A stretch of 64,000 bases of DNA. Origin: Clostridia bacterium. GTDB taxonomy: Bacteria > Bacillota > Clostridia > UBA1381 > UBA9506. A program made the translations under genes and the position numbers. Location: contig JAFYVH010000014.1 of the NCBI GenBank assembly GCA_017549205.1, positions 91,437-155,436 on the forward strand. The letters run 5' to 3'. The number at the start of each line of letters is the position of its first letter. The first letter of the stretch is position 1. Shown here piece by piece: positions 33,735 to 56,256 of the stretch. The notes under the pieces are model-generated. The model was not told the DNA's origin. It saw only the letters and a program-made list of their open reading frames with translations, and did no database searches.

Positions 33735-34487
33735 TTACTCAGCGTCAAATGCCAGATCATATTCTGCAAAGATAGCAGCCAAAGTGCCGTCTGCCTTTAA
33801 TTCATCCAAAGCCTTGTTGATTTTTTCAACCAGCTCGGTGTTACCCTTCTTGGTAGCAATTGCATAATTTTCTTTTGTTAAAGGCTCATCTAAAACGATG
33901 GTTGCACCGTTTTGCTTGTCAGACAGTGCTTTTGCAACAGCATCGTCAATAACAACAGCCTGTACTTTACCGGTTGTTAAAGCAGAAATAGCTTCAGCGC
34001 CGGTTTTAAAGGACTGGATTGCATATTCGTTATCCAGCAGGTACTGTTCACCGGTTGTGCCTTCCTGGCAGGAAACGGTTTTGCCTTCTAAGTCAGCAGC
34101 AACTTTGATTTCGCTGTCAGCCATAACGATGATAGCCTGAGATGCTTTGTAATAGTCATTGGAAAAGTCCATGTTCTTGCGTCTTTCATCATTTGCTGTG
34201 ATACCGGCAACAGCAACATCATATTTGCCGGTAGCTGCGCCTGTTAAAGCAGCATCAAAATCGATATTGGTGATTTCAAGTTCCATACCCAGTTTTTCAG
34301 CTAAAGCTTTTGCCATGTCTACATCGGCACCAACGATTTCTTCACCTTCTAAATATTCAAAGGGAGGAAATTCAGCGTTTGTAGCCATTGTCAAAACAGC
34401 ATCGCCGCTGCCACCGGAGCAAGCTACCAATACGATTGACAGCATAGCAACCGCCAAGATTAAAGATACAACTTTTGAAATTTTCAT
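33735..34487 (-). CDS. Amino-acid ABC transporter solute-binding lipoprotein (conventional order)
   Basis: SBP_bac_3 lipoprotein of 250 aa. The signal peptide ends in lipobox LVAC (Cys23). Lobe 1 starts TMATNAEFPPFEYLEG, lobe 2 holds AGITANDERRKNMDFS with the arginine that usually binds the ligand carboxylate, and the chain returns to lobe 1 with YAIATKKGNTELVEKINKAL and DGTLAAIFAEYDL at the C terminus. This is the normal segment order of the family and contrasts with the permuted protein at 55309-56118. The ligand is probably a polar amino acid. Confidence 0.93.
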   Translation of the reverse strand: MKISKVVSLILAVAMLSIVLVACSGGSGDAVLTMATNAEFPPFEYLEGEEIVGADVDMAKALAEKLGMELEITNIDFDAALTGAATGKYDVAVAGITANDERRKNMDFSNDYYKASQAIIVMADSEIKVAADLEGKTVSCQEGTTGEQYLLDNEYAIQSFKTGAEAISALTTGKVQAVVIDDAVAKALSDKQNGATIVLDEPLTKENYAIATKKGNTELVEKINKALDELKADGTLAAIFAEYDLAFDAE

Positions 34488-53761: not shown

Positions 53762-54517
53762 TTAATACTCGCTGACATTTTTTAAGAAGGCTGCCACACG
53801 CTCGTTGGAAGCGTTGTTAAAGAACTCCTCAGGTGTTCCCTCCTGCAGAACAACACCATCATCCATGAAGATGATTTTATCAGAAACCTCTCTGGCAAAA
53901 TTCATTTCATGGGTAACAATAATCATGGTCGTGTCGTTTTTAGCCAACTGCTTAATAACCTTAAGTACTTCCCCTGTCAGTTCAGGGTCTAAAGCAGAGG
54001 TTGGCTCGTCAAAGCACAAAATGTCAGGGTTGAGCGCCAAGGCTCTTGCAATGGCGACACGCTGTTGCTGACCGCCTGATAATTGGCAGGGGTAATAGTC
54101 CACCTTATCAGAAAGACCAACCTTGTCTATCAATTCCCGCGCCTTTTTCTCGATGTTTTCAGGTGTGTCAAACTTAAGAAGCGTCGGCGCCAGCATAATG
54201 TTCTTTAAAACACTATATTGCGGAAACAGGTTAAAGGACTGAAAAACAAGACCGAAATGCAACCGCATTTCTCTGATGTGTTGCTCGCTCATTTTATTTT
54301 TTTCAGCACCGTTATAAATCACTTTGTCATTAACTGCAATCGTACCGTTTTCAGCAAACTCTAAAAAATTAAGGCAACGCAAAAGGGTGGTTTTTCCGCT
54401 TCCCGATGAACCGATGATGGAAAGCACATCACCCTTTTCAATCGAAAAGCTGATGCCTTTTAAAATCTCCGTTTTTCCAAAGCTTTTTTTCAAATCTTTA
54501 ACTTCTAATATTGGCAT
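53762..54517 (-). CDS. Amino-acid ABC transporter ATPase (second system)
   Basis: GlnQ-type ATPase of 251 aa. Walker A GSSGSGKTT, Q-loop region GLVFQSFNLFPQYSVL, signature LSGGQQQRVA, Walker [13 protein letters not shown] and H-loop IIVTHEMNFA are intact. It starts 4 bases after the permease gene ends. It energises the transporter whose binding protein (55309-56118) has a permuted order, so the coupling machinery itself looks ordinary. Confidence 0.93.
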   Translation of the reverse strand: MPILEVKDLKKSFGKTEILKGISFSIEKGDVLSIIGSSGSGKTTLLRCLNFLEFAENGTIAVNDKVIYNGAEKNKMSEQHIREMRLHFGLVFQSFNLFPQYSVLKNIMLAPTLLKFDTPENIEKKARELIDKVGLSDKVDYYPCQLSGGQQQRVAIARALALNPDILCFDEPTSALDPELTGEVLKVIKQLAKNDTTMIIVTHEMNFAREVSDKIIFMDDGVVLQEGTPEEFFNNASNERVAAFLKNVSEY

Positions 54518-54521
54518 AGCA

Positions 54522-55229
54522 CTAACTCCTGAAATAACTCATTTTCTTTTCGATATAGCCAAACAAAAGGGTCAAAATGCCGCAGAATAATAAGTAATAA
54601 ATCGCCGTATAAAACAGCGGCCACAAAAGACCATCTGACTTAACAAATTTCTGTGCATTCCAAATAATTTCATAAACCATAACCACACGGGCCAAAGAGG
54701 TATCTTTAACCAGAGTGATAATTTCATTACTCATAGGGGGCACGATTCGTTTAAACACCTGAAGCAAAATGACCTTAAAGAAAATTTGAGCCTTTGTCAT
54801 GCCCAAAACTTGACCGGCCTCATATTGACCACGGCTGATGGATTCAATACCGCCACGGTAAATCTCGGAAAAATAGCAGGCATAGTTAATGACAAATGCA
54901 ATCATAACGGCAAAAAAACGGTCGAACACATGCCAGGTGGCAAGCCATTCCACGAAGCCACCGGCAGCTGCACCGGTCGTGAGCAATTTGCTTGCCCAGG
55001 TGCCAATCAAACCGGGACCATAATAAATCACAATCAGCTGCAGCATCAGGGGCGTTCCGCGGATAATCCAGACAAAGATTTTCACAATCCATTTAACCGG
55101 ATTAAAGCGACTCATGGAACCAAAACAAATAACGAGTCCAAGAGGCAGAGAGAACAAAAGCGTTAGTGCAAATAATTTGCAGGTGACCAGCATGCCCTCA
55201 AACAGCTTTAACGATACTTCCACAAACAT
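54522..55229 (-). CDS. Amino-acid ABC transporter permease (second system)
   Basis: HisM/GlnP-type permease of 235 aa. The EAA loop reads GQYEAGQVLGMTKAQIFFK, followed by VILLQVFKRIVPPMSNE; FSEIYRGGIESI precedes it. About five membrane segments. The domain order is conventional. It lies between the permuted binding protein gene and the ATPase gene. Confidence 0.92.
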   Translation of the reverse strand: MFVEVSLKLFEGMLVTCKLFALTLLFSLPLGLVICFGSMSRFNPVKWIVKIFVWIIRGTPLMLQLIVIYYGPGLIGTWASKLLTTGAAAGGFVEWLATWHVFDRFFAVMIAFVINYACYFSEIYRGGIESISRGQYEAGQVLGMTKAQIFFKVILLQVFKRIVPPMSNEIITLVKDTSLARVVMVYEIIWNAQKFVKSDGLLWPLFYTAIYYLLFCGILTLLFGYIEKKMSYFRS

Positions 55230-55249
55230 AAAATTTACCTCATAACTTG

Positions 55250-55286
55250 TGCAAAGGCACCAGGCAAAATGCCTGCTGCCTTTGCA
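55250..55286 (-). other. Strong hairpin between permuted binding-protein gene and permease
   Basis: TGCAAAGGCA (55250-55259) pairs with TGCCTTTGCA (55277-55286), and AGGCA/TGCCT (55262-55274) forms an inner stem over an AAA loop. No U-run. Likely stabilises the binding protein mRNA. Confidence 0.8.
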
Positions 55287-55308
55287 TTAAAATCAATTTA
55301 ATCTAAAA

Positions 55309-56118
55309 TTATTTAACCATTGCATTAGCCATGGTTAAGTCAATGATACAGGCATCGCAGGAACCGCTTGTAACCTCTAAGAGAGCATCGGTCTGTGTGC
55401 CAACTTCTGTCAGGTTAGCAAAACCGCACTCTTCGGCAGCAGCAGCACCGGCAGAACCGGATTCTGCAGCAAAGCTTAAGTCTTTCATGCTTTCAGCGTC
55501 AGCATAATCAGCAGCTTTGTCAGCAGCCATTACAACAACCTGTGCATTTTTAACATAAGCAGCAGAACAGCTTGTGTTCTTTAAAACATCTTCGGAAATT
55601 GTCATGCCGTTCCAGATGCAGTCAATGGCTTTTGATTCCAGTGCAACAAACTTGTTATCCCAGTCAATTTCAACAAATTCAGCGGCAACACCCAGCTTTT
55701 CGCAAACTGCTTCAGCAAATTCGGTGTCAAAACCGGTCCATTTGTCTTCAGCGTCTTTATAGTTCATGGGTTCATAATCGGTGATACCGATAATCAGCTT
55801 GCCATTAGCCTTTACATAGTCAACATCAGCCAGAGTTACCTCTTCTTCTTCAGCGGGCGCTAAATCAGAAAGAGCCAGGTCATATTTTTCAGCAAGAGCT
55901 GCTAAAGTGCCGTCTGCCTCCAGCTCGGCAATGTAATCGTTAACAACAGCTGTCAGGTCAGAACCCTTTCTGAAACCGATGCCATATTCTTCGCTTGTGA
56001 GCTCGCAGGCAATCGCCAGAGAAGCTTCTTCATTGTTTGTTTTTACGGTTGTTGCACAGCCTGTTAATGCCAAAACCAGCATCAGAGAAACCAGTGCAAA
56101 AGACAATACTTTTTTCAT
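55309..56118 (-). CDS. Solute-binding lipoprotein with circularly permuted SBP_bac_3 order
   Basis: A 269-aa lipoprotein (lipobox LTGC, Cys21) that supplies ligand to the adjacent permease and ATPase. Its segments are in an unusual order. Residues 33-83 (LTSEEYGIGFRKGSD, then ADGTLAALAEKYDL) form the module that normally ends SBP_bac_3 proteins. A Glu-rich linker (84-97) follows, then residues 98-269 hold the usual start (KLIIGITDYEPMNY), lobe 2 (IWNGMTISEDV, VKNAQVVVMAAD) and end at IIDLTMANAMVK, where the moved module would normally begin. The termini thus lie in lobe 2 and the old ends are joined in lobe 1. The frame is intact with no stop or shift. The lobe-2 arginine of many amino-acid binders is absent. 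The ligand is unknown. Confidence 0.92.
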   Translation of the reverse strand: MKKVLSFALVSLMLVLALTGCATTVKTNNEEASLAIACELTSEEYGIGFRKGSDLTAVVNDYIAELEADGTLAALAEKYDLALSDLAPAEEEEVTLADVDYVKANGKLIIGITDYEPMNYKDAEDKWTGFDTEFAEAVCEKLGVAAEFVEIDWDNKFVALESKAIDCIWNGMTISEDVLKNTSCSAAYVKNAQVVVMAADKAADYADAESMKDLSFAAESGSAGAAAAEECGFANLTEVGTQTDALLEVTSGSCDACIIDLTMANAMVK

Positions 56119-56256
56119 GTTTAAAATCTCCTTTTTAAAATGAATGTTTACTTATGCCAAGTAACTACTTCATTTTACTATAAAAAAACCGATAAGTAAA
56201 GACTCTTTCCTATTTCTACCTAATTTACAACCGCACGAATGTATCATTTTATTAAA

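Follow-up and report, generated by a model that had tools for sequence, protein, structure and literature searches.

The window analysed here is a stretch of 64,000 nucleotides from a contig of a Clostridia bacterium of the gut. On its minus strand, at positions 55309–56118, it contains an open reading frame for a 269-residue lipoprotein of the SBP_bac_3 family whose segments are in a permuted order. The frame is intact and starts with ATG, and a ribosome-binding site, AAGGAG, is read in the sequence 5′ of the start codon (56128–56133, minus strand, as are the other features of this operon). Residues 1–20 form a lipoprotein signal peptide (56059–56118) with an LTG|C lipobox (LTGC, residues 18–21). 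Cys-21 (56056–56058), which belongs to the lipobox and is invariant in an alignment of eight proteins, is the predicted lipidated N terminus and membrane anchor. It is followed by a short, fast-evolving spacer of residues 22–32 (56023–56055). The same operon also encodes a permease (54522–55229; PF00528, E = 6e-20) and an ABC ATPase that is TcyN/GlnQ-like (53762–54517; PF00005, E = 2e-34). The intergenic region between the binding-protein and permease genes (55230–55308) holds a strong stem-loop (minimum free energy −30.7 kcal/mol, z −5.3), and this hairpin plausibly sets a higher expression of the binding protein.

To describe the order of the chain, three segments were defined: N, which runs through lobe 1 to the first hinge strand; M, which is lobe 2; and C, in which the second hinge strand is followed by the final lobe 1 helices. 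Canonical SBP_bac_3 proteins have the order N-M-C, whereas both Pfam and a segment scan give C-N-M for the window protein. The C module (residues 33–83, 55870–56022) carries these elements, with which a canonical protein ends. It is recognized by its match to Pfam profile positions 94–129, by the segment scan, and by predicted strands and helices that equal the canonical C-terminal elements. An internal linker (residues 84–97, 55828–55869), assigned from the linker lengths across permutants, leads from the old C terminus to the old N terminus. The N module (residues 98–197, 55528–55827), located by the start of the Pfam profile, spans the initial portion of lobe 1 together with the first hinge strand, elements with which a canonical protein begins. 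The M module (residues 198–269, 55312–55527), located by the segment scan, covers most of lobe 2 and ends in DLTMANAMVK. These boundaries agree with the earlier note on this DNA, which had placed a return module at residues 33–83, a linker at 84–97, and the canonical start at residue 98, in an intact frame behind a lipoprotein signal.

The window protein matches PF00497 with 98.4 bits, compared with a gathering cutoff of 26.4, and the match comes in two pieces. Residues 109–202 align with profile positions 2–95, and residues 29–79, when the N-terminal part is searched alone, align with positions 94–129. Among solved structures, the AncCDT-1 chain reveals the same swap: its start aligns with query residues 94–264 and its end with residues 32–79. 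Both parts of the protein are homologous to a canonical protein, and a single unbroken frame encodes them in exchanged order, as expected of a circular permutant. Since the segment order is not N-M-C, the protein is classed as a permuted variant of SBP_bac_3. The second binding protein of the window (33735–34487) is canonical in Pfam (N-M-C), in agreement with the standard order that had been read from its sequence. Profile tools show permutants of this kind as two partial, order-swapped matches, so they are easily mistaken for truncated or broken proteins.

The mature window protein was modeled with AlphaFold2 using an alignment (A2) of permuted homologues and canonical fragments. The result is one compact fold with a pLDDT of 93.9 and a pTM of 0.83, and the C module is above 90. 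For the canonical relative L045 from Ructibacterium gallinarum, the pLDDT is 94.8. The elements of the window model (E14–19, E23–30, H35–48, H51–58, and then H78–85 onward) are the canonical list in rotated form. With the lobes assigned by homology, all canonical elements are present, and the predicted fold appears complete instead of being two half-lobes, an outcome that, together with missing homologues, the earlier note had considered indicative of an artefact or a broken gene. A sequential structure search also finds SBP_bac_3 proteins, with an alignment that covers residues 76–249 only, as expected of a sequential method. The natural circular permutation that had been proposed is borne out by the swapped Pfam pieces, the collinear homologues described below, and the predicted fold.

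The window-type cut, GEG|TSY, maps to about residue 174 of the canonical model, in the loop between helix 165–171 and the second hinge strand. By homology, this site would fall in lobe 2, and both hinge strands (canonical E92–101 and E181–197) are left uncut. In the window protein, the break in the chain would fall between ...DLTMANAM and TSYDNLAIACELTSEEYG..., within a lobe 2 loop at the surface, and the linker would connect the former termini, which both belong to lobe 1. Since both hinge strands would remain intact, a fold, a ligand cleft, and a docking to the permease of the canonical SBP_bac_3 kind are expected.

A doubled canonical sequence, against which a circular permutant appears as a single match across the junction, was used to screen genomes of the order, class, and phylum to which the window genome belongs. 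From Clostridia and allied classes, 59 distinct permuted SBP_bac_3 proteins entered the tree, in two layouts that were both confirmed by segment scans. In the first (CNM, 32 proteins), the window-type cut precedes the second hinge strand; in the second (MCN, 27 proteins), the cut immediately follows the first hinge strand. No third cut site was found among the 59 permuted proteins. When the canonical paralogue from the window was doubled as a control, its subfamily turned out to be rich in CNM and MCN proteins as well, cut at the two equivalent sites, and all 32 of the second-subfamily proteins that were fetched were confirmed to be permuted. Two of these second-subfamily permutants, L156 and L157, are encoded on chromosomes assembled as one contig, 4.9 and 3.0 Mb long.

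Long matches that were considered as other breakpoints or as CNMC intermediates (G343, G034, G040, G170, G263, G371, and G213) were canonical on re-scanning, which indicates that the segment scan separates the classes. Plasmid records were used as an outside control. With the type-A query, 277 records matched, and in none did a single place cover 80% of the query; the type-B query gave eight records in which 80% is reached, and those among the matches listed consist of two pieces each, as canonical order predicts. In the Protein Data Bank, no permuted SBP_bac_3 protein was present in the top 60 matches of three permuted queries, an absence that is not proof, and the VIA-align rows for structure matches aligned the N-M part only. 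In genome G226 (L168:1633–3243), an MCN binding protein is fused straight to the permease and has a signal peptide but no lipobox. In genome G110, a diverged CNM permutant (L126:102–1109) has a transmembrane helix and a charged linker in place of the lipobox, and a second CNM copy (L125) is found on a different contig.

All sequences were re-ordered to N-M-C before trees were built. The IQ-TREE phylogeny of 111 proteins, comprising the window subfamily and outgroups, requires five order changes, two to CNM and three to MCN. All five are forced by well supported branches, and the bootstrap range is 5–5. Placing all CNM proteins in a single clade costs 156 log units (p-AU 1e-6) and is rejected, and so is a single clade for two MCN groups, which costs 198 log units. 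A tree of the N segment only gives six changes and a tree of M and C only gives five, with the same window clade in both; this agreement suggests a common history for the segments. For the two subfamilies together, a quick tree with 182 proteins gives 10 changes, 7 of them forced, and a careful tree of the second subfamily gives 7, of which 5 are forced. The trees therefore force at least five order changes in each of the two subfamilies. The simplest reading is that about ten independent permutations took place, some of which could in principle be reversions.

A lipobox is present in 31 of 32 CNM and 26 of 27 MCN permutants. In canonical lipoproteins the anchor leads into lobe 1 through a spacer with a median of 26 residues, whereas in CNM and MCN proteins alike it enters lobe 2, with the lobes assigned by homology, and the median spacer before the first segment is 8 residues for CNM and 2 for MCN. 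Because the CNM and MCN cuts are both in lobe 2, the lipid anchor moves from lobe 1 to lobe 2 either way. In the cell, the lipid anchor of the window protein would enter lobe 2 on a short leash.

Two explanations for the recurrence were weighed. In the first, to which we give about an even chance, tandem duplication is frequent, two loops happen to be permissive, and the permutation has no functional consequence. Both cuts are indeed in loops and keep the hinge strands. The window permease is also as close to the permease of an operon with a canonical binding protein (L053, 76% identity) as to those of several operons with permuted ones (75%, among them L044), so that the docking surfaces are probably unchanged by the permutation. 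Such neutrality is harder to reconcile with the observation that in each origin found the anchor ends up on the same lobe and the median leash drops from 26 to 8 or 2 residues, which looks directional. In the second explanation, selection favors a lobe 2 that is tethered near the membrane; this could serve to orient the cleft, for instance, or to free lobe 1. Two cut sites and some ten origins with the same outcome are in its favor, as is the lipobox in 57 of the 59 permutants, and tethering was raised as a possible cause by the authors who described the permuted protein TpMglB-2 (PMC4990184). On the other hand, most lipid-anchored binding proteins in the same genomes remain canonical, and the lobe 2 loops may be the sole tolerant sites. 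We consider selection on the tether a serious candidate with a little over one chance in three, and rate the neutral explanation slightly higher. The broader proposal carries the same tentative weight: that permutation is common, recurrent, and adaptive in clostridial lipid-anchored binding proteins of the amino acid type, is confined to two loops, is driven by selection that shifts the anchor from lobe 1 to lobe 2, and passes through fused tandem binding proteins as a stepping stone.

How a permutant comes about is a separate question. If a permutation arises by duplication, a fused tandem copy should form first and then lose its redundant ends (PMC3320104). For the window protein, an in-frame tandem duplication with fusion, followed by truncation at both ends, would give the observed order, and we regard this route as the most likely. 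The new C-to-N junction has 30 residues in CNM and 34 in MCN proteins, whereas canonical proteins have a C-terminal tail of 5 residues and a spacer of 26 between the lipidated cysteine and the fold. The junction is about as long as the old tail and the old spacer together, as duplication, fusion, and truncation predict, although the span to be bridged could by itself dictate a similar linker length. The old anchor spacer has apparently been reused as the internal linker.

Forms that look like intermediates are also found. At L143:3591–5174 and L152:2901–4490, two canonical SBP_bac_3 copies are fused into one lipoprotein of 528 and 530 residues, respectively, with a permease gene adjacent. Adjacent duplicated binding-protein genes occur within the same operons at L055 and L064, and a 1000-residue protein from genome G142 (L219:706–3705) has a lipoprotein signal, three MCN units in tandem in the permuted register, and a fused permease domain. 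The earlier note had suggested a tandem duplication with partial deletion; the linker lengths and the fused tandem relatives support this as the probable route.

Alternatively, C and N-M could come from different genes that were brought together by fission and fusion or by exchange. Such a modular origin would account for the lack of duplication traces. No leftover C module lies between the window stop codon and the permease gene, no in-frame remnant of a duplicated segment was found past the stop codon downstream of 27 permutants, and no half-truncated CNMC intermediate was found in the segment scans. In contrast, the N-only and the M+C trees place the permuted clade of the window alike, with near-equal numbers of origins, and the linker corresponds to the old C-terminal tail plus the old spacer. 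We judge a modular origin improbable, at roughly one chance in ten, and retain duplication, fusion, and truncation as the preferred route.

The arginine that contacts the ligand α-carboxylate in the TITxxR motif is a feature of amino acid binders and not of the whole SBP_bac_3 family. In the window protein it is absent, with a valine in its place at TISEDV (55585–55602). According to alignment A2, the canonical relatives of the window subfamily also lack this arginine, so its loss is a trait of the subfamily and was not caused by the permutation. The ligand of the window subfamily may not be a plain amino acid. A role for the permutants as sensors or decoys that are no longer transport subunits might be suspected from the diverged protein L126, with its transmembrane helix instead of a lipobox, and from L125, beside which no permease was found. 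Such a role is very unlikely, given that in the window and nearly all relatives the permutant is the first gene of an operon in which the permease and ATPase genes directly follow, and that no canonical orthologue of the window protein was found elsewhere in the window genome, which is 92% complete.

Seven further C-N-M proteins from other genomes are 66–86% identical to the window protein and, like it, are encoded beside permease and ATPase genes, so that the absence of homologues with this order, which would have spoken against the permutation, does not apply. The C-N-M arrangement occurs at 86% identity in one genome from the genus of the window genome and at 68% in another genus within the family. 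Scanning named genome contigs turned up members at 86, 74, 74, 68, 66, and 71%, which come from the SIG and RGIG metagenome-assembled genome (MAG) collections. All eight proteins align collinearly from the signal peptide to the stop codon. Between the window gene and L039, the relative at 86%, dN/dS is 0.11 overall, with 0.18 for the C, 0.03 for the N, and 0.13 for the M module; the codons of each module are under purifying selection. Only the spacer after Cys-21 is free to vary (pN 0.63 compared with L039 over residues 23–32).

A misassembled contig or a decaying duplicate gene as the source of the C-N-M order might be feared from a window genome assembled in 21 contigs and from named type-A relatives that are MAGs. 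Both are ruled out for practical purposes by seven divergent homologues with the same order in separate assemblies, by the dN/dS of 0.11, and by sister-subfamily permutants that lie on single-contig chromosomes. The permutant of the window is real and probably functional, with a transport function that would be unchanged. We conclude with high confidence that the window gene encodes a working binding protein of an ABC importer of the amino acid family, one that is naturally circularly permuted.

The closest known counterpart is TpMglB-2 (Tp0684) of Treponema pallidum, a permuted glucose-binding lipoprotein that binds its ligand, changes conformation, has relatives in Gram-positive gut bacteria, and was proposed as "Type Ic / Cluster Bc" (PMC4990184). 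Like the window protein, it is a natural circular permutant and a lipid-anchored ABC binding protein. However, TpMglB-2 is a type I/cluster B sugar-binding protein with the permuted strands in its N-lobe and an extra fourth crossover, and it was described as one topology (PMC4990184), whereas SBP_bac_3 has two topologies with many origins. The window protein belongs to PF00497 with relatives of the amino-acid-type cluster F and is not of the type I/cluster B class. With canonical SBP_bac_3 proteins (PF00497; type II/cluster F, for example ArgBP, GlnH, and ArtJ) it shares the three segments, the predicted hinge strands, the lipobox, and an operon with a HisM-type permease and a GlnQ-type ATPase; it differs in the C-N-M order, in an anchor that would sit at lobe 2, and in the spacer apparently reused as a linker. 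Engineered circular permutants, such as FRET and cpFP sensors, demonstrate that binding proteins tolerate permutation, but they are man-made, unlike the window protein.

In the literature searched, which included few subscription papers and no preprints, TpMglB-2 was the only natural permuted binding protein, and no report of a permuted SBP_bac_3 protein was found. This agrees with the earlier note, which knew of no described permutant in the family; the window protein is not a one-off, though, since two permutations recur across Clostridia. A natural permuted binding protein of another class was known before, and the surprising part is the recurrence within SBP_bac_3. Most descriptions of natural circular permutations deal with single cases. 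This very common family offers about ten changes of order that recur at the same two positions of the chain, canonical sister proteins at about 55–70% identity for a matched comparison, and fused tandem forms that resemble intermediates. The origin of permutants by duplication or by fission and fusion thereby becomes testable, as does the question of whether the position of the tether on the binding protein matters for ABC import. The natural permutants also offer ready-made scaffolds from which sensors could be designed.

The appearance of a duplication intermediate is illustrated by GlnPQ (SBD1-SBD2, Protein Data Bank code 6h30), in which SBP_bac_3 domains occur in tandem and the permuted queries align across the SBD1-to-SBD2 junction; it differs in that the domains are in the canonical register and fused to the permease. 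Finally, in the operons L055:3398–5205 and L064:2886–4693, two canonical binding-protein genes precede one permease-ATPase pair, and one of the copies lies on a much longer branch.
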